A stretch of DNA of 21,354 nucleotides, taken from IMG/VR virus record IMGVR_UViG_3300042549_003611, positions 1-21,354 of that record. One strand, given 5' to 3'. Of the stretch, positions 9,768-21,354 are shown one piece after another. Source of the stretch: a virus. The notes under the pieces were generated by a model, which saw only the letters and a list, made by a program, of their open reading frames with translations, ran no database searches and was not told the origin of the DNA. The translations under genes were made by a program, and so were the position numbers. The stretch's first letter is position 1, and each line of letters opens with the position of its first letter.

Positions 9768-10786
9768 TGTCCGGTCGCGAGCTTGAAGATAACTGCGTTC
9801 GCACCCGCATCGAAGCGTGGCTGCGGAACGATAAATCCGTCGTTCGTGCGGCGGAAGAATTGGGCATCAACACAAAAACGTTGGGAAGTACGATCTACTC
9901 GGCCGAGGGCCGGCGGGTAGCGGCGGAGTTGACGCAGGACTTCGGGGCGCCGGTTCCCGACCTCGCGCCGCGCGAGGCGCCGAAGTACCGCAAGATCGGC
10001 CCGCCGGATGGGGTGGTGAGGGTTATGGTCATCGGGGACGCGCACGACGATCCGCGCATTCCCGATAAGTCCCGGTTCGCGTTGATGGGGGCTCATGCCG
10101 AAGCGACCCGGCCCGACGTAATCCTGTCCATCGGGGACTTCCTCGACTTCGCGAGCCTGTCCACGCACGAACGCGAGGACACGTATAAGGCGCGTGGGAA
10201 GCCATCGTTCATGGAAGACATGGCGTCGGCGGTGGATGCGTTACGGGTCTTTGAGGCGCAGTTGTCGCCCGACTACCATCCGCGCAAGCACATCACGTTC
10301 GGGAACCACGAAGAAAGATGCGAGCGCGCTGAAGATATCGACCCCAAGGCGCGGGGCATGTACGCCGGCCAACGCGACACGCTATTTGAAAGCCACGGCT
10401 GGACGCACCAAGCCTATCGCCACTGGACGGTGATCGGGGGCGTTGGCTTTACCCACGCGCCGCAATCAATCATGGGCAAGCCGCTAGGTGGGAAGAACGT
10501 CGAGAACACCATCGCGAACGATACCACGTTTAGCGTCGTCTTCGGCCATACGCACCGCTACAACTACGTGCGCCGACCGAAGCAAGGCTACGCAAACAGC
10601 GTCACGGTCGTGAATGTTGGTTGCGCGATGCCGCACAACTACGTTCCGTCCTACGCCAGCGCGTTACCGACCGGATTTACATATGGCATCGTGGACATGA
10701 TGATTGAAGGTGGGGAAATTCTTTCCGCGCCCCTTCGGACGTTCCGCGAATTGACCCGGATGTACGGCGAGCCCCGTGACGCCTAA
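9767..10786 (+). CDS. HTH-linked calcineurin-like metallophosphoesterase
   Basis: The 339-residue product carries the full metallophosphoesterase motif set in order: GDAHDD (Asp91, His93), GDFLDF (Asp124), GNHEER (Asn180, His181), FTHAP (His230) and GHTH (His261, His263). These residues bind two metal ions and hydrolyse phosphomono- or diesters; the substrate cannot be told. Residues ~10-50 form a helix-turn-helix-like unit (VVRAAEELGINTKTLGSTI), which could hold the enzyme on DNA. The ATG at 9767 overlaps the previous stop (TGATG); a GTG at 9764 is the alternative. The gene lies between a membrane coiled-coil protein and the endolysin, so it may be expressed late. Phosphoesterases with an N-terminal HTH are known in other phages, but their substrate is generally unclear. 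Confidence 0.88.
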   Translation: MSGRELEDNCVRTRIEAWLRNDKSVVRAAEELGINTKTLGSTIYSAEGRRVAAELTQDFGAPVPDLAPREAPKYRKIGPPDGVVRVMVIGDAHDDPRIPDKSRFALMGAHAEATRPDVILSIGDFLDFASLSTHEREDTYKARGKPSFMEDMASAVDALRVFEAQLSPDYHPRKHITFGNHEERCERAEDIDPKARGMYAGQRDTLFESHGWTHQAYRHWTVIGGVGFTHAPQSIMGKPLGGKNVENTIANDTTFSVVFGHTHRYNYVRRPKQGYANSVTVVNVGCAMPHNYVPSYASALPTGFTYGIVDMMIEGGEILSAPLRTFRELTRMYGEPRDA

Positions 10787-10922
10787 GCGCGAGAAGCGCC
10801 CGAAGCGCCCGCCGCCGAAAGAACCCCGCAAACATCCCAAGGTCGAGTTTGCCCCGGAAGATGAGGGCGCAGACCCCCTTGATTTCGTCATCGACACGAA
10901 CTGGCCGCCCAAGCCGAATTGA
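10776..10922 (+). CDS. 48-residue basic/acidic small protein
   Basis: A short frame starts at a GTG within the last codons of the phosphoesterase gene (11-base overlap) and stops 10 bases before the endolysin ATG. The first 22 residues are strongly basic and Pro-rich (KREKRPKRPPPKEPRK). The rest is acidic (APEDEGADPLDFVIDTNW). It fills a 146-base gap in an otherwise gapless operon, and the amino-acid make-up is not that of random high-G+C frames. The ribosome site is weak and the product is not recognised. The basic half could bind nucleic acid, but this is guesswork. Confidence 0.5.
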   Translation: MTPKREKRPKRPPPKEPRKHPKVEFAPEDEGADPLDFVIDTNWPPKPN

Positions 10923-10932
10923 TGGAGGCGTC

Positions 10933-11448
10933 ATGTCTCTCTGGTCCCGCCTTGCGGAGCGGTTCGTCCGCGTGCGTGCGCCCGCCGCCCCTCCACCCGT
11001 CCCGACTGACCCGATCACCCTCGCGGTCAATGCCGCGCTCCCCGTCATTAAGGAGTTTGAGGGGTGCAGGCTGACGGCCTACCGCTGCCCAGCGGGCGTG
11101 TGGACGATCGGATGGGGGGCGACCGGGGACAACATCGTGGATGGCCTGACGTGGACGCAACAGCAAGCCGATGTGCGCCTTGCGGTTGACGCCCGACAGT
11201 TCGCCATCGCGGTTCGCCGCGCGGTCACGGTTGCTCTCACGCCTAATCAGCACGGCGCCTGCGCGAGCCTCGCCTACAACATCGGGGCCGGGGCGTTCGG
11301 GGCGTCCACCCTCGTCAAGATGCTCAACGCCGGGGACTACGCGGGCGCCGCTGATCAGTTCGGCCGGTGGACCAAGGCCAAGGGCGTCGATCTGCCGGGC
11401 CTTGTGCGCCGCCGCGCTGCCGAACGCGACTTGTTCGTGAAGGAGTGA
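10933..11448 (+). CDS. endolysin, GH24 (phage lysozyme) family
   Basis: The 171-residue enzyme cleaves the glycan strands of peptidoglycan at the end of infection. The GH24 signature E-8aa-(D/C)-5aa-T is complete: Glu43 in EFEGCRLTAY, Cys52 in YRCPAGVW, and Thr58 in WTIGWG. Cys instead of Asp at the second position is an accepted variant in this family. Further family blocks are LTPNQHGACASLAYNIG and RRAAERDLF at the C-terminus. The ~30 residues before the domain are basic and Pro-rich and show no signal peptide or SAR helix, so release should depend on the holin encoded next. GGAGG lies five to nine bases before the ATG; a longer upstream frame belongs to shadow coding. Confidence 0.92.
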   Translation: MSLWSRLAERFVRVRAPAAPPPVPTDPITLAVNAALPVIKEFEGCRLTAYRCPAGVWTIGWGATGDNIVDGLTWTQQQADVRLAVDARQFAIAVRRAVTVALTPNQHGACASLAYNIGAGAFGASTLVKMLNAGDYAGAADQFGRWTKAKGVDLPGLVRRRAAERDLFVKE

Positions 11449-11451
11449 CCC

Positions 11452-11961
11452 ATGCCCATCCCGCTGATCCCCCTCTTGGGGGCCGTGTTGCCGTACCTGA
11501 TCCCCGCCGTTGCCGAAAGGGTGGCGGGTCAGCCGGCCGGGGAAATCGCACAGAGGGTTGTCGAAGTCGCGCAGGCCGTCACCGGGCAGACCGATCCCGA
11601 TGCAGTGGCGCAGGCGCTTGCGGGCGATCCCGCGCTTGCGTCCCAACTCCGCACGCGGTTAGCGGAGATTGAGTTGGACGTGATCCGCGTCGACGCCGCC
11701 GACCGGGCCGACGCGCGCGCCCGTCATGCCGCTATGCGGGACTGGGCAACCCCGGCTCTAGCCTTCTCGATCACGATCGGCTTCTTCGCGGCGCTGGGGT
11801 TCGCCATGGCGTTCGGGCTGCCCGAGGCGGGGCGTGAACCGCTCCTCGTCCTCATCGGCTCGCTGGCGACCGCGTGGACCGCCGTGGTGGGCTTCTACTT
11901 CGGGACCAGCAACGGGGCGCGGCGGGCGTCGGACGCCATCAACGCGACGCTGCGCCGATGA
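11452..11961 (+). CDS. GTA-type holin (three-TM holin family)
   Basis: The 169-residue protein matches the 'holin of 3TMs, for gene-transfer release' family. A hydrophobic N-terminus (IPLIPLLGAVLPYLIPAV) is followed by a charged helical middle with ADRADARARHAAMRDW. Two membrane helices follow (about residues 100-122 and 129-150), and the end is FYFGTSNGARR, which corresponds to the family's yyfGSS-G tail. It should assemble in the inner membrane and let the adjacent signal-less endolysin reach the wall. AAGGAG precedes the ATG by about eight bases. Its TGA overlaps the next ATG (ATGA). The family was named from the Rhodobacter gene transfer agent and supports an alphaproteobacterial host. 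Confidence 0.88.
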   Translation: MPIPLIPLLGAVLPYLIPAVAERVAGQPAGEIAQRVVEVAQAVTGQTDPDAVAQALAGDPALASQLRTRLAEIELDVIRVDAADRADARARHAAMRDWATPALAFSITIGFFAALGFAMAFGLPEAGREPLLVLIGSLATAWTAVVGFYFGTSNGARRASDAINATLRR

Positions 11962-12233
11962 CCGACGACACGATCCGGGGCCGGACCCTTGCCGCTGCCG
12001 GCCGGGCTGTCCTGACCGACCGAAACAACGAATACGGCGGGCCGGAACAGTCCTTCGGCACCATTGCGGCGTTGTGGTCCGTGATCATCGGGCGCCCCGT
12101 CACCCCGGCGGAAGTCGCCTTGTGCATGGCGGCGGTGAAGATCGCGCGATTGACCGCCAATCCCACGCACGCCGATAGCTGGATTGATCTAGCGGGCTAT
12201 GCGGCGTGCGGGGCGGAAGTGGCGGGGTCATAG
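11958..12233 (+). CDS. DUF6378-like phage protein
   Basis: The 91-residue product matches the small phage family I know as DUF6378. It has LTDRNNEYGGPEQSFGTIAA (family: 'gdR...YG.pe.nf..ia.lW'), then RPVTPAEVALCMAAVKIARL, then HADSWIDLAGYAACG, all in order. The function is unknown; members are scattered in early or accessory regions of many phages. The start is the ATG of an ATGA overlap with the holin gene. It is the last + gene. Its TAG (12231-12233) interlocks with the last codon of the convergent operon, so both messages must read through or end inside the opposite gene. Confidence 0.82.
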   Translation: MTDDTIRGRTLAAAGRAVLTDRNNEYGGPEQSFGTIAALWSVIIGRPVTPAEVALCMAAVKIARLTANPTHADSWIDLAGYAACGAEVAGS

Positions 12234-12899
12234 GTTCCGGTACGCCGTCGCCAGTTGCTCGGTTTCGCGATCCAGTTCCGCAACGCGGGCGGCGGTCTGC
12301 ATCGCGTCCTGCCGGATCATGTCGCGCTCGGCTTGCGCGTTTGACAGCATCTCTCGCAGACGCGCGGCTTCCGCCGTGAGGGCGTCGACCCTTTCAGCCG
12401 CCGCGACGGCCGTTTCTTCATGCCGGTCCCGATCGGCGATGAGGTGGCAGACAAGCGATGCCAGCCCGGCCTTGCTTTGTCGGTTGCCGATCAACTTCAT
12501 CGCCGTCGCATAGCGCCGGTGGTTCTGGTGATTGGCCGACGGGTGATCGTCCCTTACCCGCTGGGTCCAATCGTCCGTCCGATCGCCCTCCTGCTGCCAG
12601 TGCCGCGCCTCCTGAGCGTCGTTCTCAGCATTGAATGCGCGGTCGTTCGCGGCCTTTAGGTCGGCCATCAGGGCGTCGATGTGGGCCAGCAGGGCGGGGA
12701 CGTCGGATCGGGCGCTCGCCACGAAGGCGGCGTTAGCGGCTGCGTTGCCGTAGCCTCGCGGCTGGTAGAACTCGCCGATCGCTTGGCCTTCCCCCTGTGC
12801 GTACAAGCGCGGGGCATCGTGGCCGACGGTGTGCCACGGTCCCGGCGTCGCCTTCTCGGCCCTCTCCCGGATCGCGGCGAGGTCGTCATTCGTCAGCAT
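12228..12899 (-). CDS. Ea22-like protein with C-terminal coiled coil
   Basis: The 223-residue product is the last gene of the leftward operon. The N-terminus has the Ea22-type pattern: AIRERAEKATPGPWHTVG, a strand region, then NAAFVASARSDVPALLAHID, which is usual in these phage proteins of unknown function. From about residue 85 the chain is a long charged helix and coiled coil (AEAARLREMLSNAQAERDMI). The ATG at 12899 is preceded by GGAGACCCCCG, and it overlaps the upstream gene by 14 bases; the open frame continues further upstream as a shadow. Its TGA (12228-12230) abuts the stop of the convergent gene. Confidence 0.78.
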   Translation of the reverse strand: MLTNDDLAAIRERAEKATPGPWHTVGHDAPRLYAQGEGQAIGEFYQPRGYGNAAANAAFVASARSDVPALLAHIDALMADLKAANDRAFNAENDAQEARHWQQEGDRTDDWTQRVRDDHPSANHQNHRRYATAMKLIGNRQSKAGLASLVCHLIADRDRHEETAVAAAERVDALTAEAARLREMLSNAQAERDMIRQDAMQTAARVAELDRETEQLATAYRNL

Positions 12900-13260
12900 C
12901 GGGGGTCTCCGTCGTGAGCCGGGCGCGTAGGGCGGCGATGCAGAGGGCGATGATTGGCAGTTCGTGTGGGCATTGCCGTCCGACAAGCTGGTTCATGCGC
13001 CACACAGAAGCATACGACCCTGGAGAACCATACCCTTCCGCCCGCCTGTCCGTAACGCTCCACGCCATGCCATTCGGAACGAGCGCTAGGGCGGCGTCGA
13101 GGGAGGCGGTGAAATTTACCTGACCGCGATACCGCGCTCCAGTCTGAGACCAGACATAGAAGTCCTCACGCCAAACGAGACCCACCGTCTCGCGAATGGC
13201 GGCATCAAGCCCCCGGTCTGGCCCCGTCGCGCTTTCCAGCCGGGCGATCAGGTCACGCAT
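12886..13260 (-). CDS. phage ABA-sandwich-like protein, copy 1
   Basis: The 124-residue product has the layout of a small phage family common in alphaproteobacterial phages: RDLIARLESATGPDRGLDAA at the N-terminus, YRGQVNFTASLDAALALVPN in the middle and LPIIALCIAALRAR at the end. I would compare it with the 'phage ABA sandwich' domain; the function is unknown. A related gene lies at 16136-16474, with the same DLIARLE start and IAALKAR end. GGAGACCCCCG, identical to the site of the next gene, precedes the ATG. It overlaps the upstream gene by eight bases. The C-terminus ETPDADE repeats the ETPDA ending of its upstream neighbour. Confidence 0.75.
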   Translation of the reverse strand: MRDLIARLESATGPDRGLDAAIRETVGLVWREDFYVWSQTGARYRGQVNFTASLDAALALVPNGMAWSVTDRRAEGYGSPGSYASVWRMNQLVGRQCPHELPIIALCIAALRARLTTETPDADE

Positions 13261-13525
13261 CGGGGGTCTCCTCTAGGGCGGCGGTGAGCATGGCGCGGAT
13301 GATGTAGAACGGGGCGCGGCCTCGTGCCGTCGCATTCAACAACGCCTCAACCATCCCGTCCGTCGGCTCCATCAGCGCGGCGATGGCGGCGCGGGCGAGG
13401 AGCGCATAGCCGTCTCGTTCGTCCTCGCCTGACCCGCTTTGCATGGGGTCGCCAGCTTGCTCCCAAGTGAACCCCTGCGCTTCGCACAAGGCCCGCGCGA
13501 CCCTCTCGATCATCGTGTCAGGCAT
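13253..13525 (-). CDS. MPDTMIERVARA-type small protein, short paralogue
   Basis: The 90-residue product is a paralogue of the 147-residue protein at 14128-14571. Residues 1-12 are identical and residues 44-60 differ at one position (ARAAIAALMEPTDGMVE), while residues 13-43 are unrelated but the same length. The rest of the family has the form 'iARA........ARAAIAAM.EPT..MveA' and is of unknown function. AAGGAG is eight bases before the ATG. That ATG lies in ATGCCTGA, the end of the upstream gene (eight-base overlap). Both start region and upstream junction are part of a 64-base perfect repeat. Confidence 0.78.
   Translation of the reverse strand: MPDTMIERVARALCEAQGFTWEQAGDPMQSGSGEDERDGYALLARAAIAALMEPTDGMVEALLNATARGRAPFYIIRAMLTAALEETPDA
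13350..13396. repeat. 47-base near-perfect repeat, copy 1
   Basis: It matches 14396-14442 at 46 of 47 positions. It encodes the ARAAIAALMEPTDGMVE region. The offset is again 1046 bases, so the 94 bases between this and the 64-base repeat have the same length in both copies. Confidence 0.92.
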
Positions 13526-13554
13526 CGTCGTTCTCCTTGTCCAGCCGGCCGGCG
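13491..13554. repeat. 64-base perfect direct repeat, copy 1
   Basis: The sequence is identical to 14537-14600 over all 64 bases. On the - strand it encodes the last residues of one gene (RLDKENDDA), the AAGGAG ribosome site and the first residues MPDTMIERVARA of the next gene. A whole gene junction is therefore duplicated. Confidence 0.95.
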
Positions 13555-13742
13555 AGCCGCAGAAACCCTACGCTGAACTCCGGGACTATGCCCGTCTGCG
13601 GTTGCAACTCTCCGAAGCGATCAACGCACGTTTCGCAGCGGTGAATTTCGCGATCGGGGGTCTGCGGGAAGCCGCTATAGACCATCTGCCACATCGCGCG
13701 CGGGGACGCTTTGAAGAAGCGGCCACAGCAGTCGCACTTCAT
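13518..13742 (-). CDS. small zinc-ribbon-like protein
   Basis: The 74-residue product has two CxxC knuckles, Cys3-Cys6 (KCDCCGRFF) and Cys36-Cys39 (HRCETCVDRF), spaced as in small zinc ribbons. That suggests a zinc-stabilised fold that could bind nucleic acid or protein. The C-terminus is AGRLDKENDDA, the same last 11 residues as the gene at 14564-14983, because both end inside the 64-base repeat. The ATG at 13742 overlaps the upstream TGA by one base and is preceded by GGAGGGGGAGTG. A longer upstream frame is a shadow. The function is unknown. Confidence 0.72.
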   Translation of the reverse strand: MKCDCCGRFFKASPRAMWQMVYSGFPQTPDREIHRCETCVDRFGELQPQTGIVPEFSVGFLRLAGRLDKENDDA

Positions 13743-14128
13743 CACTCCCCCTCCCGGTCGAGTCGGCCGGCGGCGGTGAGCCGATCCGGCGCGTGCTGTT
13801 GTAGCCACCGGTGACCGAGAAACGTCATGCCCGCCGCTTGGTCAGCGTTTCGAGGCATCGGAACCTCGTCATCGCGCACCACCGCCGCCTCCCCCTTGAG
13901 AATCGCGTCCGCCGCCACGTCGCCGACCCGGTTGAGGAGCGCGAGGGCGCGGGCGATGTGACTGTCAGTCGGCGCACGATCAAGGCCGGCCTCCAGAACG
14001 TCCGCGATCTCCGCGAGCGTGCCGGCCATCAGCATAGCCCCCTCGCACGGCCCCTTGTCCTTGGCAGCGGCTCGAAGCATCCCGACGCGGGTGCGCCAGT
14101 ACGCCTCGTTTCCCGGTTCCGTCCCCAT
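13742..14128 (-). CDS. hypothetical protein sharing an internal segment with the gene at 14564
   Basis: The 128-residue protein is not recognised. It looks helical throughout (YWRTRVGMLRAAAKDKGP, MAGTLAEIADVLEAGL). Residues ~62-76 (IARALALLNRVGDVAAD) are almost identical to a segment of the protein at 14564-14983, and this holds at DNA level (47 of 50 bases). Its C-terminus AAGRLDREGE is a variant of the AGRLDKENDDA ending seen twice nearby. The ATG at 14128 overlaps the upstream stop (TGATG) and has the same GGAGGGGGAGTG site as the next gene; a GTG at 14131 is an alternative. Probably a shuffled member of the local gene family set. Confidence 0.7.
   Translation of the reverse strand: MGTEPGNEAYWRTRVGMLRAAAKDKGPCEGAMLMAGTLAEIADVLEAGLDRAPTDSHIARALALLNRVGDVAADAILKGEAAVVRDDEVPMPRNADQAAGMTFLGHRWLQQHAPDRLTAAGRLDREGE
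13908..13957. repeat. 50-base internal gene repeat, copy 1
   Basis: It matches 14778-14827 at 47 of 50 positions and encodes IARALALLNRVGDVAAD within the gene at 13742-14128. The offset is 870 bases, different from the other repeats, so it is a separate event. Confidence 0.9.
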
Positions 14129-14571
14129 CACTCCCCCTCCTTCTTGATCGCGGTGGCCACGATGGGGCCGAGATCGGCCGCCCGCATTGCCCCGAGGACA
14201 TCGGACCGCACACGGTCGCGCTCGCTCACATCTCCGATGGCGTCGTGGATCGCGTCGTGGACCGTGTCGTCCAGATGGTCCCGCACCGCCTCCGCGACGC
14301 GCTGGGCGAGGGCGGCGCGGTAGGCGTGTCGCACGGCCGAATAGGCGTCAGGCGTCCGTTGCGGGTCCAGGGCGGTCTGCATGATCATCGTTTCCACCAT
14401 CCCGTCCGTCGGCTCCATCATCGCGGCGATGGCGGCGCGGGCTTGCCGAATGTAGATTTCGCGGACGCTAGGCGACTGCCATCCGTCAACATCGTCGTCG
14501 GCCACTCCGTCGTACTCGTTCATGTCCGCAAGCATCGCCCGCGCGACCCTCTCGATCATCGTGTCAGGCAT
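14128..14571 (-). CDS. MPDTMIERVARA-type small protein, long paralogue
   Basis: The 147-residue product shares its first 60 positions, without gaps, with the protein at 13253-13525, but with a diverged core (residues 13-43, acidic here: EYDGVADDDVDG). After that it has a ~70-residue extension the short copy lacks: YRAALAQRVAEAVRDHLDD, an Asp/His-rich DTVHDAIHDAIGDV, and GAMRAADLGPIVATAIK. The function is unknown. AAGGAG lies eight bases before the ATG, inside the 64-base repeat, and the start overlaps the upstream gene by eight bases. The histidine and aspartate run could bind metal, but no known site is formed. Confidence 0.76.
   Translation of the reverse strand: MPDTMIERVARAMLADMNEYDGVADDDVDGWQSPSVREIYIRQARAAIAAMMEPTDGMVETMIMQTALDPQRTPDAYSAVRHAYRAALAQRVAEAVRDHLDDTVHDAIHDAIGDVSERDRVRSDVLGAMRAADLGPIVATAIKKEGE
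14396..14442. repeat. 47-base near-perfect repeat, copy 2
   Basis: This is the partner of 13350-13396 with one mismatch. It encodes ARAAIAAMMEPTDGMVE in the longer paralogue. Beyond it the paralogues diverge. Confidence 0.92.
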
Positions 14572-14600
14572 CGTCGTTCTCCTTGTCCAGCCGGCCGGCG
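14537..14600. repeat. 64-base perfect direct repeat, copy 2
   Basis: This is the second copy of 13491-13554, at an offset of 1046 bases. It spans the end of the 139-residue gene and the start of the 147-residue gene. The genes on the upstream side of the two copies are otherwise unrelated. Confidence 0.95.
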
Positions 14601-14983
14601 GCGATGCCCTCGTGCAACGTAAAGTGCGCCAGCAAGTCTTGAGCGTCGTCCACTGGATTGCTCGCCCGCACCATCTCTATCGTGGGCTCCACCGGCACCA
14701 CCGCCGCTGTCCCGGCCTTCAGCCCTGCCCACGCCTCGGGGTTCCGGCGCGCCCACTCCACCAGGGCCGCGACGTCATCCGCCGCCGCGTCGCCGACCCG
14801 GTCAAGGAGCGCGAGGGCGCGGGCGATCTTTTCCCCGCGCTCCCGGACCTCGCGGTTCATCTCGGTGACCGTGAGCCCTTGCATACCGTTGGCAATGCAG
14901 ATGACCCGACGCCCCTGTGTGACCCACGCGCGGCACAACTCGCTGCCCGTGTTCATGAGATCGACCTTGTACGGCGCGCTCAT
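14564..14983 (-). CDS. hypothetical protein, source or recipient of shared segments
   Basis: The 139-residue protein is not recognised. It has a strand-rich start (YKVDLMNTGSELCRAW, then RRVICIANGMQG) and a helical remainder. Residues ~53-69 (IARALALLDRVGDAAAD) match the protein at 13742-14128. The last 11 residues AGRLDKENDDA match the protein at 13518-13742. A strong GGGGAGGAGGGCTG site precedes the ATG, which overlaps the upstream stop (TGATG). The open frame goes further upstream but within the previous gene. Its mosaic likeness to two different neighbours is the oddity here. Confidence 0.72.
   Translation of the reverse strand: MSAPYKVDLMNTGSELCRAWVTQGRRVICIANGMQGLTVTEMNREVRERGEKIARALALLDRVGDAAADDVAALVEWARRNPEAWAGLKAGTAAVVPVEPTIEMVRASNPVDDAQDLLAHFTLHEGIAAGRLDKENDDA
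14778..14827. repeat. 50-base internal gene repeat, copy 2
   Basis: This is the partner of 13908-13957. It encodes IARALALLDRVGDAAAD in the gene at 14564-14983. Confidence 0.9.
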
Positions 14984-15939
14984 CAGCCCTCCTCCCCGGT
15001 CACGCCGGTTAGCACGGCGGCGAGGTTGATGGCGTCCATCCTGTGATGGTTCCGGGCGTCGCCATACGTCCCGGTGACCGCCTGCTTGCACGCCTCCCGC
15101 ACCGCCTCGGCCACAGCGATGTCGCGGGCGGCGCTAAGGTACGCGCGAAGGTCGGCGGGATTGGAACCGGAGTTCAGGTCAACCGAGCCAGCGCGGTGCC
15201 TTCCCTGACCGCGGTCGAAGAAGGTGTAGCCGAGCCCATCATCGCCGCTGGACAAAAGCGCGTAGAAGGCGCTGCCCTCGCGGTTGCGCCCCCACTCGAT
15301 CCCGACTTCTCCCCCTTCCTCAGCCTTAAAGAGTCGCGCATCGGTGCCGGCGAGCGAGGCGACGACGCGCAGTAGGCCCGTCAGCCGCTCCACCTCGGCC
15401 TCCAGCTTCGTGACGCGCGCGGCAAGATCGGCGCGGCGGTCCTCCAAGCGAGCGGCGTGGGTCTCAGTCGTGCGGGCATAGCCGATCCAGTGATCCACCT
15501 GCCGCGTCAGCCGCTCCACCTCGGCCCGGAGGCGGGCGATCTCGGCGTCCTTGTCGCCCCGCTTGATGAACCGGCCGTACTCTCGGACGAGTTCGCGCAT
15601 TTCAGGGGTTGTCCCGAGCGGTGCCGGCCCCTCCGCCAGCGCCGCCCACCTAGCTGCCATCCGCTCCCCGTCGGCCAGCCCCGCTTTCCCGACCGGGACA
15701 CCCGCCATCTCCGGGCCGCTCTCGGGTGCGGGATTTTCCCGATCGGGGTGCCGCACGATGTCCACTCCGCCGGTCGAGTGCGAGAACGTCCAACCCGCCG
15801 CCTCAGCGCGCTGGATCATCTCTTCCATTTCCGCCCGCACGCAGCCAGGGCGGCCGGTGCAGGACGGATCACGCCACTCGCCCGGCCCGCCGGGGTCAAT
15901 GACGCGGATCACGCACGCCGGGCACTTCAGGTCGGTCAT
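14983..15939 (-). CDS. cysteine-headed coiled-coil phage protein
   Basis: The 318-residue protein begins with four cysteines in ~30 residues (Cys6-Cys9 in LKCPACV; Cys27 and Cys33 in SCTGRPGC), a probable zinc-binding head. Residues ~125-200 form a long coiled coil (EIARLRAEVERLTRQVDHW and AARVTKLEAEVERLTGLL). The last ~100 residues include GLGYTFFDRGQGRHRAGSV, YLSAARDIAVAEAVREAC and a helical end. GGAGGAGGGGGAGCC precedes the ATG, which sits in an ATGA overlap. The inner open frame upstream is a shadow. I do not recognise the family. The DNA contains two near-repeats around gtcagccgctccacctcggc, matching the duplicated coiled-coil residues EVERLT. Confidence 0.74.
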   Translation of the reverse strand: MTDLKCPACVIRVIDPGGPGEWRDPSCTGRPGCVRAEMEEMIQRAEAAGWTFSHSTGGVDIVRHPDRENPAPESGPEMAGVPVGKAGLADGERMAARWAALAEGPAPLGTTPEMRELVREYGRFIKRGDKDAEIARLRAEVERLTRQVDHWIGYARTTETHAARLEDRRADLAARVTKLEAEVERLTGLLRVVASLAGTDARLFKAEEGGEVGIEWGRNREGSAFYALLSSGDDGLGYTFFDRGQGRHRAGSVDLNSGSNPADLRAYLSAARDIAVAEAVREACKQAVTGTYGDARNHHRMDAINLAAVLTGVTGEEG

Positions 15940-16139
15940 GGCTCCCCCTCCTCCTCGCTGATCTTGATCTGCGTCGCCGACAGGTCGTAGCGGACCCACG
16001 GGCGTCCGCACGTCGGGCACTCGTCCTGTGGGTCTTCACACCACAGACGCCCCTCCCCGTTGTCCTCCAGCGTCCGAATACAGTCCGCGCACGCGGGCTG
16101 GAGGTAGATCGTCGCGTGGGTGGTCACGTCGCCGGTCAT
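15936..16139 (-). CDS. small zinc-ribbon-like protein
   Basis: The 67-residue product has five cysteines: Cys17-Cys20 (QPACADC), Cys34, and Cys41-Cys44 (CPTCGRPW). The two CxxC pairs separated by about 20 residues, the second followed by Gly-Arg, are typical of a zinc ribbon. GGAGG is six to seven bases before the ATG, and the gene overlaps both neighbours as ATGA. Its EEEGEP ending belongs to the same Glu-Gly-Glu tail type as two other genes in this operon. The function is unknown; binding of nucleic acid or of a host protein is plausible. Confidence 0.73.
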   Translation of the reverse strand: MTGDVTTHATIYLQPACADCIRTLEDNGEGRLWCEDPQDECPTCGRPWVRYDLSATQIKISEEEGEP

Positions 16140-16474
16140 CGCGGGCCTCCGTCGGCGGCACGCGCCTTGAGCGCGGCGATGCACATGGCGAGGGCGGGGG
16201 TGGCGGCGTGCGCCGCGTATACCTGACGGCTAATCGTCAGCACCGCGCATCCTCGCCTATGCGGTTTCTCGCGCGGGCTGAAGTACACCTCTTCGTCGGC
16301 CCCCTCCGGGACCAGCGTCAGGGCGGCGTCGAGGAACGCGCCCGACAGGATGAGGCGGATGATACGGAAATGCTCCCTCGCTGGCAGCTTGAGCGCGTCC
16401 ACAACCCACAAGAGGTCGTTGCTCTGCGTTTCAGCAGTCGCGGCCTCCAGCCGGGCGATCAGGTCAGCGAGCAT
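16136..16474 (-). CDS. phage ABA-sandwich-like protein, copy 2
   Basis: The 112-residue product is related to the protein at 12886-13260: LADLIARLEAATAETQSND at the start, AFLDAALTLVPEGAD in the middle, TPALAMCIAALKARAADGGP at the end. Between these the two differ strongly, and this copy lacks the YTASLDAAL-type aromatic run. The DNA encoding DLIARLE is identical over 21 bases (13235-13255 and 16446-16466). GGGAGGCCCC precedes the ATG, and it overlaps its upstream neighbour by 11 bases. The function is unknown. Duplication or separate acquisition of two family members are both possible. Confidence 0.74.
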   Translation of the reverse strand: MLADLIARLEAATAETQSNDLLWVVDALKLPAREHFRIIRLILSGAFLDAALTLVPEGADEEVYFSPREKPHRRGCAVLTISRQVYAAHAATPALAMCIAALKARAADGGPR

Positions 16475-17108
16475 CGGGGCCTCCCTCTGCGGGCGGGGTG
16501 GCGAGAGCGCGGATGGCTTCGGCGATGCGTCCGGCTAGATAGTCGTGATCCCACAGACGCTCTCCGCGCCGCGTCATGTCGTCCTCGACAACCCGCGCCG
16601 CCTCCTCAATCCCCTCTCGCCGGCCCCGCTCGACAAGCGCGGCGTCGCGGGCTGCGGCAGCGGCGGGGGTGTTGGTGAGGGCGGCGTCAGTTTCGCGCAC
16701 GAGGCAGAGAGTGAACCGGGGGTTGGCACTTCCGCAGTCACCCCGGCAGTCCGGGCAGCCCGTGCGATACCACCGATCCAACACCTCCCGCAGCGCCGCC
16801 TCTCGCGCCAGCGCCTCGTCGCGATGATTGGCTGCCGCTTCCAGTGCTTTCGCGATGTAGCGCGCCTGTGCGAGGGCCACGTCGCGCTCCCGCTCGGCTG
16901 CCTCGGCGCGGGAGAGGAGGGCGGCGACCTCGCTGCTCGGGGTGGTGTCGATGGTTTCGGCCAGCGCGTCCCAAGACGGCGCGCGCCACGCCATTGTGGT
17001 GTGAGACGTCTCGCCTTGAATGGTCAACCAAATCTTGACGCCACCTTCAAGTTCGGCGGCGTCAACGGACGCCCGTTGAGTCGGTACGGAGTTCGTGTCG
17101 ATAGTCAT
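16464..17108 (-). CDS. coiled-coil protein with cysteine knuckle
   Basis: The 214-residue protein has a strand-rich start (GGVKIWLTIQGETSHTTMAW), then a long helix or coiled coil (about residues 60-110, LLSRAEAAERERDVALAQAR). A cysteine cluster Cys118-Cys121-Cys125 plus Cys135 (GCPDCRGDCG ... FTLC) looks metal-binding. The C-terminal helix EGIEEAARVVEDDM and RIAEAIRALA resembles the closing helix of many small phage proteins. GAGGAGGCGAGGCT precedes the ATG, and the start overlaps the upstream stop as ATGA. I do not recognise the family. Confidence 0.74.
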   Translation of the reverse strand: MTIDTNSVPTQRASVDAAELEGGVKIWLTIQGETSHTTMAWRAPSWDALAETIDTTPSSEVAALLSRAEAAERERDVALAQARYIAKALEAAANHRDEALAREAALREVLDRWYRTGCPDCRGDCGSANPRFTLCLVRETDAALTNTPAAAAARDAALVERGRREGIEEAARVVEDDMTRRGERLWDHDYLAGRIAEAIRALATPPAEGGPDAR

Positions 17109-17374
17109 AGCCTCGCCTCCTCGGTCGGCACGGTGAACGTCAGGGCCTCAAGTTTCGCGATCCGCTTACGAAGCGAGGCGATCTCGTCGCGGCGGCGCTT
17201 TTCGGCGTTGGCGAGTGCAGCAGCCGGGTCCGCGAAGGCGTCGCGGTTGACGCGGAGGCTGTTGTAGTCCCGCGTGCGCCCATCAAAGACGTAATCATCG
17301 GACAGGCTGTGTTCGCGCACGGGAATGAGGATCACGCCCCCGGTCAGCGCATACTTCGTCACGTACATCTTCAT
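17105..17374 (-). CDS. conserved phage protein, MYVTKYALT type
   Basis: The 89-residue protein starts MKMYVTKYALTGGVILIPV, followed by DYVFDGRTRDYNSLRVNRDA. A basic helix closes it (KRRRDEIASLRKRIAKLEAL). This 'MyvTKYALt.Gi...' layout with a C-terminal coiled coil is common in phages and mobile elements of alphaproteobacteria and has no known function. GGGGAGACGAAGCG precedes the ATG at 17374, which overlaps the upstream stop (ATGA). The longer upstream frame lies inside the previous gene. Confidence 0.76.
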   Translation of the reverse strand: MKMYVTKYALTGGVILIPVREHSLSDDYVFDGRTRDYNSLRVNRDAFADPAAALANAEKRRRDEIASLRKRIAKLEALTFTVPTEEARL

Positions 17375-17844: not shown

Positions 17845-18083
17845 GCCACACCCCCATCCCATCGCCGCACCATCCGGTAGCAGTGCGCGGGCAGCCGGCG
17901 GATGACGTCGCGGCCGAACTCGGCCTCCACGATCAAGGCGTTCCCGAGATACCACATGCCCTTGATGGTGCCCACGCCGATAGTCGGATCGTTGATGTTT
18001 TCCACATCGTCACCGATGCAGTATTCGACCAGCGGCCGGTGCATCGGGCGGCGATCGTCAAGGACGATGATTTGCGCGGTCAT
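17841..18083 (-). CDS. hypothetical small protein
   Basis: The 80-residue product is not recognised. It starts MTAQIIVLDDRRPMHRPL and continues with a strand-rich centre GVGTIKGMWYLGNALIVEAE and a basic end PAHCYRMVRRWDGG. It looks like a small beta-barrel-type protein (SH3-like strand spacing), which is only an impression. GGAGGGCTGC gives a good ribosome site for the ATG at 18083, and both ends overlap neighbours as ATGA. The longer upstream frame is inside the next gene. Confidence 0.68.
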   Translation of the reverse strand: MTAQIIVLDDRRPMHRPLVEYCIGDDVENINDPTIGVGTIKGMWYLGNALIVEAEFGRDVIRRLPAHCYRMVRRWDGGVA

Positions 18084-18532
18084 GCAGCCCTCCGTTCGCC
18101 AAGGATATCGTCCACGCGGGCCATGAGGTCGTCCCGGCCGGTGCCAGGGATCAGGTGCCCGGTGACTAGGGACAGCACACTTTCCATCCACCGGCTAAAC
18201 TCGGCTTCGTCCATGGCGTCAAACGACGTGGACCTGAGCCGCATGATATCCCGGCCGCGCACGGTGTAGGTATCGTAAAGTCCAAGTCCGATTTTGATCG
18301 CGTCGTGCATGGCCTCGGGCGTGGGGAACGTTCCGCCTTCCCCGCCTTGGGCGTCCCATGCGACCTGCATAACGGCCCAAAACATCCGGTGGCGACGGAG
18401 GTTGCGCGACTGCGTAATGCGCGCCCGCACGCGCACCCCCGGCCGGATGCTGTCCAAGGCTTCCAACGAAACCGGGTCGGCGGCCACAAAGCTGCCGTCC
18501 GGTCGCCGCACAAGGATGGCGTCGGTTGCCAT
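18080..18532 (-). CDS. DUF1367-like phage protein
   Basis: The 150-residue protein has the order of blocks I associate with DUF1367: a short strand region, RNLRRHRMFWAVMQVAWDAQ, then TPEAMHDAIKIGLGLYDTY, then MRLRSTSFDAMDEAEFSRWM, and LIPGT near the end. Members sit beside recombination and replication genes of phages and have no established function. The start ATG at 18532 overlaps the upstream TGA by one base with GAGGGG ahead of it. Its neighbours (ERF and YqaJ types upstream, HNH-like downstream) fit a DNA-metabolism block. Confidence 0.72.
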   Translation of the reverse strand: MATDAILVRRPDGSFVAADPVSLEALDSIRPGVRVRARITQSRNLRRHRMFWAVMQVAWDAQGGEGGTFPTPEAMHDAIKIGLGLYDTYTVRGRDIMRLRSTSFDAMDEAEFSRWMESVLSLVTGHLIPGTGRDDLMARVDDILGERRAA

Positions 18533-18897: not shown

Positions 18898-19719
18898 TCA
18901 ATCCCCCGCGTCAAGAATGGTGGTGTCGGCCGCGCCCTCGACGGGGGCGGGCATCTCGGCCAGCGCGATGCGCCGCTGGTCAATAAGGTTCGCAAGCCGC
19001 GCGTGCGCCTTCGGGTTCGCTTTGGACACTCCCCCCATCGCAACGGCGTTGTGACGCACCCACGCCTCTAGGTCGGCGGCATCCGTCGCCCCGTTGATGG
19101 CGGCGGCGTAACGCTGTCCCCACGCGATCCAGTCGGACCCTTCGCCGTCGCTCAGGACCGGCACGTCGATGCGATGCGGATACCTGTCGGGCGTGGGTTC
19201 CGGCTTCACCAAGCGCGGCGACGGCGGCGGGGCCGAGGGCTTGGGCGCGGCCGGCCCCTGCGGGCCATCGCCATCCGCGTCGCCGTCGTGCGCGGGCTCG
19301 CGGTAGTCTTCGCCCGTGGGCACTTGGAAAAGGCCCAGGATGAAGTACTTGCGCGCCGCCGTGTGGCACTTGTTGGCGGCCTTGTCGTCAAACCCGCCCT
19401 TCTGGTTGCGGCACCCGCTCATGCCGGTGTGGACCGGGCGCTCGGGCCACGTCTCGCCAGACGAGTGCGCCAGCGTGAACTGGTAGCGCACCGCCAGAAC
19501 CCGGCCGTCGTCCATGAACTCGCGGTCGATTTCGTGCTGGAAGATGACCAGCCCATGTTCGCCCATGAGGGGCTGGATACGGTCCAGCAGGTCCCCGATG
19601 GTGGCGTACTTGTAGCCGTGAAACGGGTTCTTCCCGCGCTTCTGGACGTAAATGTCACTCGCCATGATCGCGGAGATGGCCTTGATGATCTGCCCGGTCG
19701 GGGCGGCTTCGGCGTTCAT
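18898..19719 (-). CDS. erf: ERF-family single-strand annealing recombinase
   Basis: The 273-residue protein matches the ERF family, whose members anneal complementary single-stranded DNA during phage recombination and genome circularisation. The core is residues ~15-135: KNPFHGYKYATIGDLLDRIQ, PLMGEHGLVIFQHEI, VRYQFTLAHSSGETW, and KAANKCHTAARKYFILGLFQ. A Pro/Asp-rich linker (about 140-185) and a helical C-terminal domain follow (SDWIAWGQRYAAAINGA, HARLANLIDQRRIA), a usual plan. The ATG at 19719 overlaps the exonuclease stop (TGATG) with AAGGA upstream; a GTG at 19722 is possible. It follows a YqaJ-type exonuclease, making a two-component recombination system. Confidence 0.85.
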   Translation of the reverse strand: MNAEAAPTGQIIKAISAIMASDIYVQKRGKNPFHGYKYATIGDLLDRIQPLMGEHGLVIFQHEIDREFMDDGRVLAVRYQFTLAHSSGETWPERPVHTGMSGCRNQKGGFDDKAANKCHTAARKYFILGLFQVPTGEDYREPAHDGDADGDGPQGPAAPKPSAPPPSPRLVKPEPTPDRYPHRIDVPVLSDGEGSDWIAWGQRYAAAINGATDAADLEAWVRHNAVAMGGVSKANPKAHARLANLIDQRRIALAEMPAPVEGAADTTILDAGD

Positions 19720-20549
19720 CACGCAGCATCCTTCAGCTTGATGTGAACCGCGTTGTTCTTCGCGCGGCTGACCACGATGTCGGACCAGATTAGCTTACCA
19801 ACGTCGTCGGGCAGCAGATCCTTGATGTTCTTCGCGGCGTCCCGATTGGCCTTCGCGGCGGCTTCCGTGTTCGCCCAAAAGGTGAGGTGCGTCTGCATCG
19901 CGCCGACCCAATTCGGCAACGGGTCGCCGCGCTCCTGCATGACGTTGAGGTTGACAGTGCGCCACTTCTCCTGGGGCACCGGGGCGGCAATGGGAGCCGG
20001 GGGCGCGGGGTGCGTGAACGACTGCACGCAGCCCCAGAACCAGTCGATTCTTTCCCAAACCGCCGCCTCGTACTCGGGCGTCCATTCGAGGATGTGCAAC
20101 TCGGGCTCGTCCCCGCCCGACGAGACCAGCAGCGCCGCCGCCTCGGCACCGACGCACGCCCGCTGCACGACCATTTGAGGCGTGTAGTAGGCCAGCACGT
20201 CTGGCACCTTGCGCCACCGGCCGGGGGCCTTGGCGTCGATGACCAGCGATAGGGCCGTCTGCATCCCGTCGAGCGTCGCGCTGACATAGGGCCGGGTCGG
20301 GTGGGTGACGCTTTCGCCCCGGCGGGTGATCGCGTAGCCGCTCTTGCGTTGATGCCAGTCGAGGATGGCGGGCTCTAGGGCCACGCCCCGTTGCACGTCC
20401 CACACATCGGACAGGTCCACGACGACCGTCTCACCGACGCACACAAGCCACTGTTCCGTGATGCGCTTCTCGTTCCCTACCATGAGCGCGGGGACGAAGG
20501 ACGCCGGCACCTCACGGCGGGCGGCGGCCTGTTCGGGGGTGAGGGTCAT
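19719..20549 (-). CDS. YqaJ-type (lambda-exonuclease-like) recombination nuclease
   Basis: The 276-residue protein has the ordered motifs of YqaJ/lambda exonuclease: an N-terminal helix with PASFVPALMVGNEKRIT, GVALEPAILDW (Glu59), PYVSATLDGM (Asp94), LVIDAKAP (Asp105, Lys107; a D-xK form of the PD-(D/E)xK core) and YTPQMVVQRACVG. It should digest one strand of double-stranded DNA from ends, leaving the strand bound by the annealing protein encoded next. The C-terminal 70 residues (WANTEAAAKANRDAAKNIKD) may bind the partner, which is inference. GAGGA lies about eight bases before the ATG at 20549. The upstream frame is a shadow. Confidence 0.85.
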   Translation of the reverse strand: MTLTPEQAAARREVPASFVPALMVGNEKRITEQWLVCVGETVVVDLSDVWDVQRGVALEPAILDWHQRKSGYAITRRGESVTHPTRPYVSATLDGMQTALSLVIDAKAPGRWRKVPDVLAYYTPQMVVQRACVGAEAAALLVSSGGDEPELHILEWTPEYEAAVWERIDWFWGCVQSFTHPAPPAPIAAPVPQEKWRTVNLNVMQERGDPLPNWVGAMQTHLTFWANTEAAAKANRDAAKNIKDLLPDDVGKLIWSDIVVSRAKNNAVHIKLKDAA

Positions 20550-21083: not shown

Positions 21084-21354
21084 TAGGCTACCTCCCCGCC
21101 ATTCACCCACCCGCGCAGACGGGCCGTAGCCTCGATGTAATCTAGCGCCGCCAGCACCTCGCGCCGGTCGGGCTTCCCAGACCAATACTCACGACCCTCG
21201 GGGATCGTCTTGTCGCGGCACCCCACGCGGACCCGAAGAACGCCGTCTCGGACCCACCCGACGCAGCGCCAGCCGTCAGGCGTGCCCGCGTCGATGACGG
21301 CTTTGGCGCCGGCCAGATTGGCGTCGGCCAGATTGGCGTCGGCCAGATCGGCGC
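21083..21354 (-). CDS. pentapeptide-repeat protein, 5' part outside the window
   Basis: The frame enters from the right edge and gives 89 residues before a TAA at 21085-21083 that overlaps the next start (TAATG). The first residues ADLADANLADANLAGAK are pentapeptide repeats (A-[D/N]-L-x-x), which normally stack as a right-handed beta-helix. The rest is a small C-terminal domain (RCVGWVRDGVLRVRVGCRDK, YWSGKPDRREVLAALDYIEA). In phage proteins with repeats of this kind a similar Trp/Cys domain often follows. The number of repeats and the start cannot be seen. The function is unknown. Confidence 0.8.
   Translation of the reverse strand, partial: ADLADANLADANLAGAKAVIDAGTPDGWRCVGWVRDGVLRVRVGCRDKTIPEGREYWSGKPDRREVLAALDYIEATARLRGWVNGGEVA
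21311..21354. repeat. 15-base tandem repeat coding pentapeptides
   Basis: Units of ggccagattggcgtc run from 21311 to the window edge (two perfect units and a third with one change, cut by the edge). They encode the successive ADLAN-type pentapeptides. DNA identity between units suggests recent expansion. Confidence 0.85.

Follow-up and report, generated by a model that had tools for sequence, protein, structure and literature searches.

Reused ribosome-site junctions between overlapping phage genes and the probable exchange of genes together with them

Small overlapping genes and recombination functions in the operon

The window, by which we mean the whole stretch of DNA analysed (IMG/VR record IMGVR_UViG_3300042549_003611, 21,354 bases), contains an operon of 18 genes on the minus strand, and all genes and junctions of the operon described below lie on that strand. 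The recombination pair that a preliminary description of this DNA had placed in the operon is indeed encoded there, as an ERF single-strand annealing protein (18898–19719; Pfam PF04404, E 7e-15; phrog_155) and a RecE-like recombination exonuclease (19719–20549; phrog_434, E 8e-20, no Pfam match), the latter previously named YqaJ. These are accompanied by a NinB/Orf-like recombination mediator (DUF1367, 18080–18532; phrog_319, E 4e-22; PF07105). In the related contig L017, the N-terminal part of the ERF protein is replaced by a segment without a Pfam match and the C-terminal part is ~80% identical (1803–2666 of L017, compared with 18898–19719 of the window), which represents a swap inside the recombinase gene itself.

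Further along the operon lies g11 (14983–15939, weak match to phrog_13113), the anchor gene of a variable slot, with a C-terminus that varies among relatives. It is followed in the direction of transcription by the genes A, B, A', C, B', D and E, with successive overlaps from g11 to E of 1, 8, 1, 1, 8, 8 and 14 bases. A (14564–14983) is a small gene without assigned function, its product ending in AGRLDKENDDA, with a homologue in L012 that has another tail, and B (14128–14571) is a small gene with MPDTMIERVARA at its start and DLGPIVATAIKKEGE at its end. A' (13742–14128) is a patchy paralogue of A, and shows 98% identity to relative L023 in its second half, while B' (13253–13525) is a patchy paralogue of B with 46% amino acid identity. 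Between these two lies the small Cys-rich gene C (CDCC...CETC, 13518–13742). The small gene D (MRDLIARLE..., 12886–13260) is a paralogue of g9 (16136–16474), and E (12228–12899), the last gene of the operon, matches phrog_1667, a family of unknown function. Pfam searches assigned no function to the small genes. The operon resembles the nin region of lambdoid phages, and is best explained as a set of accessory early genes in a G+C-rich phage. At the edge of the window (21303–21354), a pentapeptide-like gene (ADLADANLAGA...) contains tandem 15-base repeats, which are far more numerous in contig L019 (8881–9195).

Recurrent junction sequences and stereotyped C-termini

The six consecutive junctions from A-B to D-E had been described as built from three recurring sequences in the order 2, 3, 3, 2, 1, 1, and direct reading of the minus strand confirmed this, with start codons at 14571, 14128, 13742, 13525, 13260 and 12899 (the positions given previously were the low ends of these ATGs). 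Type 2 is an exact 64-base repeat with sharp alignment edges, of which one copy (14537–14600) covers the end of A, the ribosome site AAGGAG and the start of B, and the other (13491–13554) the C-B' junction; in the alignment of B with B' all 64/64 bp are identical at the junction, with only patchy similarity outside. Among the relatives, the exact type 2 sequence was found only in the two that are nearly identical to the window (L013 and L014). Type 3 (GGAGGGGGAGTGATG, 12 identical bases plus ATG) is located at B-A' (14126–14140), where the common tail reaches ~48 nt upstream in L023, and at A'-C (13740–13754), with the same sequence in L023 and similar ones in L012 and L026. Type 1 (GGAGACCCCCGATG, 11 identical bases plus ATG) is located at B'-D (13258–13271) and D-E (12897–12910), and its support comes from the window only, none of the relatives being informative for D-E. 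Looser relatives of these types are present beyond this span, with GGAGGCCCCGATG at 16472–16484 and GGAGGGGGAGCCATG at 15937–15951. Integron-like sites were considered and set aside; the junctions fall within coding overlaps, and no distinct site separates the genes.

The reuse of junctions stood up to counting. Within the 18-gene operon, 3/153 junction pairs match over at least 11 bases directly before the start codon, compared with 0.05 expected from junctions resampled position by position (P 0.0008) and 0.22 from a first-order Markov model (P 0.004), the resampling pool itself containing the repeats. When type 2 was left out, there were two further pairs of at least 11 bases (P < 0.001); for type 1 or type 3 by itself the evidence is weak, the P value for one or more such pairs being 0.006–0.03. 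The control phages RcapMu, F116 and lambda together gave no matches in 1846 junction pairs, and Adephagia, a phage with start-associated sequences that served as positive control, gave 7/1378 in the same test.

The stereotyped C-termini noted earlier are also present, as GRLDKENDDA (twice), KEGE/REGE and ETPDA/ETPDADE. Because neighbouring genes overlap by 1–14 bases, the ribosome site of a gene falls within the last coding part of the preceding one, and in-frame translation of this site gives ends rich in KE, EG and GE. Glu and Gly were accordingly enriched in the tails of overlapping genes (39/144 versus 335/2405, 27% versus 14%, P 5e-5). This enrichment was weak or absent in two control phages, and thus also reflects the reuse of a few junctions. 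A gene that moves with its ribosome site replaces the C-terminus of the upstream protein, and the tails become stereotyped as a result; they are translated ribosome-site junctions, with nothing special to explain beyond the overlap.

Gene content and tails in related contigs

Contigs L013 and L014 are 99.3–99.6% identical to the window over the region of interest, and the presence of the same arrangement in these separate IMG/VR records argues against misassembly. The more divergent relatives (L011, L012, L017, L023/L024 and L026) are mosaic, and their genes were called by a simple script that had learned its codon usage from the window, a few starts being assigned manually. No relatives were found among annotated phages by DNA, nor by the E or exonuclease proteins, and searches of bacterial genomes gave no match. 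The related stretch of L012 is a 1.6-kb island of ~68% G+C (9990–11610) in a 62-kb contig of ~50% G+C, and the sequence at its left edge, GAGGCCCGCGATGA, resembles the junction of the window at 16139. It may be a chimera or a real transfer; since a chimera is possible, its outer edges were not used, and its internal joints were used with caution.

As the preliminary description had anticipated, gene content at the junctions varies among related contigs, and gene order is not fixed. The slot bounded by g11 and by K (MTKRYRQ...), the conserved gene that comes next, holds no genes in L011, one (C) in L026, two (A' and C) in L023/L024 and three in L012, and is replaced in the window by the run A-B-A'-C-B'-D-E, giving at least five arrangements across the relatives. 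Elsewhere in the operon, g9 is missing in L013 and L014, where homology restarts at GCCGACGGAGGCC, just ahead of the next start codon, and L014 and L017 lack g7 (17105–17374), the gap extending precisely from one ATGA to the next. Between the NinB homologue and g5, L017 carries an insert of three genes, bordered by GAGCGGAGGGCGGCGTGA and GAGCGGAGGCCGGCGCATGA, which are near-copies of one ribosome-site junction.

The three genes inserted in L017 (3475–5233) encode a queuine tRNA-ribosyltransferase-like protein (phrog_887), a Vut_1 transporter (PF02592) and QueC (PF06508). This set resembles that for 7-deazaguanine DNA modification in phages (PMC6884629), and by that analogy would have an anti-restriction role. 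A separate observation concerns L023, where a large-terminase-like protein (11157–13625) seems, on visual inspection of its translated sequence, to contain an intein-like insert.

Comparison of the variable slot among relatives established to which gene a tail belongs. The tail ALKESAP stays before K, whether behind g11 (L011) or behind C (L012, L023 and L026), with 22–23 bases matching exactly and 28–46 aligned. Similarly, IKKEGE stays before A', whether the gene that it terminates is B, as in the window, or g11, as in L023 (43/48 bases). The C genes of L012, L023, L024 and L026 match that of the window up to 13538–13539 and then have another tail, and only C of the window lineage, common to L013 and L014, runs on into the type 2 junction and B'. 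Hence ~12–48 bases ahead of the start codon go with the downstream gene, and become the C-terminus of the upstream one.

The preliminary description had further proposed that genes are exchanged by recombination at the shared junctions. This was upheld in that content differs, junctions follow the downstream gene and patch ends are enriched there: 51 of 159 distinct patch ends (not fully independent of each other) fall in junction zones, taken as -55 to +15 of the start codon, versus 20.8 expected, a 2.5-fold enrichment. It did not hold throughout, as the other 108/159 (two thirds) lie inside genes, and two of the joints discussed below are nearly without homology. Short protein segments are also common to otherwise different small genes, namely RAAIAALMEPTDGMVE (13340–13396 and 14386–14442) and IARALALLNRVGD (13908–13957 and 14778–14827), which points to shuffling within genes besides that at junctions.

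Origin of the joints and comparison with known systems

We consider it probable that a unit of ribosome site plus gene is exchanged, with many joints made by recombination at short tracts and a minority by illegitimate joining. Such a unit would comprise a ribosome site, the final codons of the preceding gene that go with it, and the gene that follows, and would be gained, lost and re-joined as a whole. Many joints may have arisen by homologous or homeologous recombination at tracts of ~15–50 bp immediately ahead of the ribosome site, probably with assistance from the ERF annealing protein and exonuclease that the phage encodes, and the remainder by microhomology. Illegitimate recombination at any position, with later selection of products in which the genes are intact and have a functional ribosome site, would also lead to carriage of the ribosome site, since genes without one are lost and junctions then travel with genes for that reason only. 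The individual joints, with parents inferred from present-day relatives, bear on this choice. Gain or loss of g7 has only ATGA exactly in common, C and K of L026 are joined at ~3 bp of microhomology (TGG), and many patch ends lie inside genes, all as expected from joining at random positions. At three other joints, however, both inferred parents share a short homology, which random joining should not produce: at C-B', C of L023 and A of the window both have CGCCGGCCGGCTGGAC (16 bp identical); in L012, A (97% identity with A of the window across 129 bp) leads into type 3 and C rather than type 2 and B, and the joint sits in a tract ~90% alike between A and A'; and ahead of A' the g11-A' and B-A' tracts agree at the 43/48 bases given above. 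Illegitimate recombination with selection as the general explanation is therefore rather unlikely in our view.

Exchange of ribosome site and gene at short tracts also accounts better for the patterns of similarity than a tandem duplication of an A-B block into A-B-A'-B' with later insertion of C, where the repeats would be remnants of paralogy. The paralogy of A with A' and of B with B', and the spacing of 1046 for the 64-bp and 57-bp tracts alike, would fit such a duplication, but similarity between B and B' is not uniform, with 46% protein identity next to a sharply bounded 64/64 match. Furthermore, L023 holds A' and C without A, B and B', the type 2 tail of C is unique to the window lineage, and types 1 and 3 link non-paralogous genes, which together make this origin very improbable. 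Least credible, and hardly to be expected, is a regulatory role of the repeats, in the manner of the start-associated sequences in cluster K mycobacteriophages, their likeness being maintained because a factor or the ribosome reads them. Their position at the ribosome site, and the same signature in the Adephagia control, agree with such a function; against it, each type has two copies only, the repeats reach into coding parts on both sides and vary among relatives with the identity of the following gene, and the joint patterns GCCGGCCGRCTSGACMRGGAG and ATCGTGGCCRCCGCGMTMAAGRARG are each confined to 5 IMG/VR contigs, all belonging to this group.

Given the ERF, exonuclease and NinB/Orf genes, single-strand annealing at the joints is plausible. 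The ERF protein of phage D3 with its exonuclease matched lambda Red in recombining DNA that was 78% identical, and the longest identical stretch in the nin-region substrate of that study was only 11 bp (PMC3945230). The exact shared tracts found here (12–16 bp) are below the efficient minimum reported for Red beta, 23–27 bp (PMC3945230). A more far-reaching reading would make the operon a dedicated cassette array free of recombinase sites, in which ERF annealing at ribosome-site junctions inserts, removes and re-orders small accessory genes, re-tails proteins as a by-product, and the junctions are kept for both translation and recombination; we regard this as distinctly doubtful.

The operon is a clear, multi-gene and well-resolved case of phage gene shuffling that is already known in kind. 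Lambdoid phages have short conserved boundary sequences (Clark et al. 2001, HK620; Susskind and Botstein 1978; both cited in PMC3029335), and, as far as these are characterised in that account, the likeness lies in exchange by homologous recombination at short sequences common to gene ends, here inferred, and also in the NinB/Orf homologue in the operon. Unlike the boundary sequences as outlined there, the shared sequence in the window takes in the ribosome site and encodes the C-terminus of the upstream protein, and several types recur in one operon. Another close parallel is gp67/gp68 of phage Island3 compared with Brujita, where the inserted gene and the upstream gene have the last 18 residues (~50 bp) in common, with gain or loss by recombination between the tails (PMC3029335); that was a single event, whereas here several junctions take part and the relatives show five or more arrangements. 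The start-associated sequences of cluster K phages have 11–19 copies of one 13-bp consensus, and are thought to be regulatory and not linked to gene turnover (PMC3203893). The window shares with them a repeated sequence at the ribosome site ahead of unrelated genes, but has three sequences with two copies each, and no many-copy consensus like GGGATAGGAGCCC was found. The junctions of the window also differ from elements of another kind in that the element here is a ribosome site within coding sequence: the mobile regulatory cassettes of T4-type phages, reportedly described by Arbiol and colleagues in 2010, are said to be junction elements thought to promote gene shuffling, and to carry a promoter or terminator.

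The present case adds that such junctions are used repeatedly within a single operon, where several joints can be given inferred parents and a product, and it adds a rule by which tails go with the gene downstream. From one operon and a handful of relatives, the exchange unit was shown to include the translated ribosome site, and the rule that C-terminal tails follow the downstream gene is testable. It also carries a warning for annotation, as similarity between the tails of small phage proteins need not imply homology.
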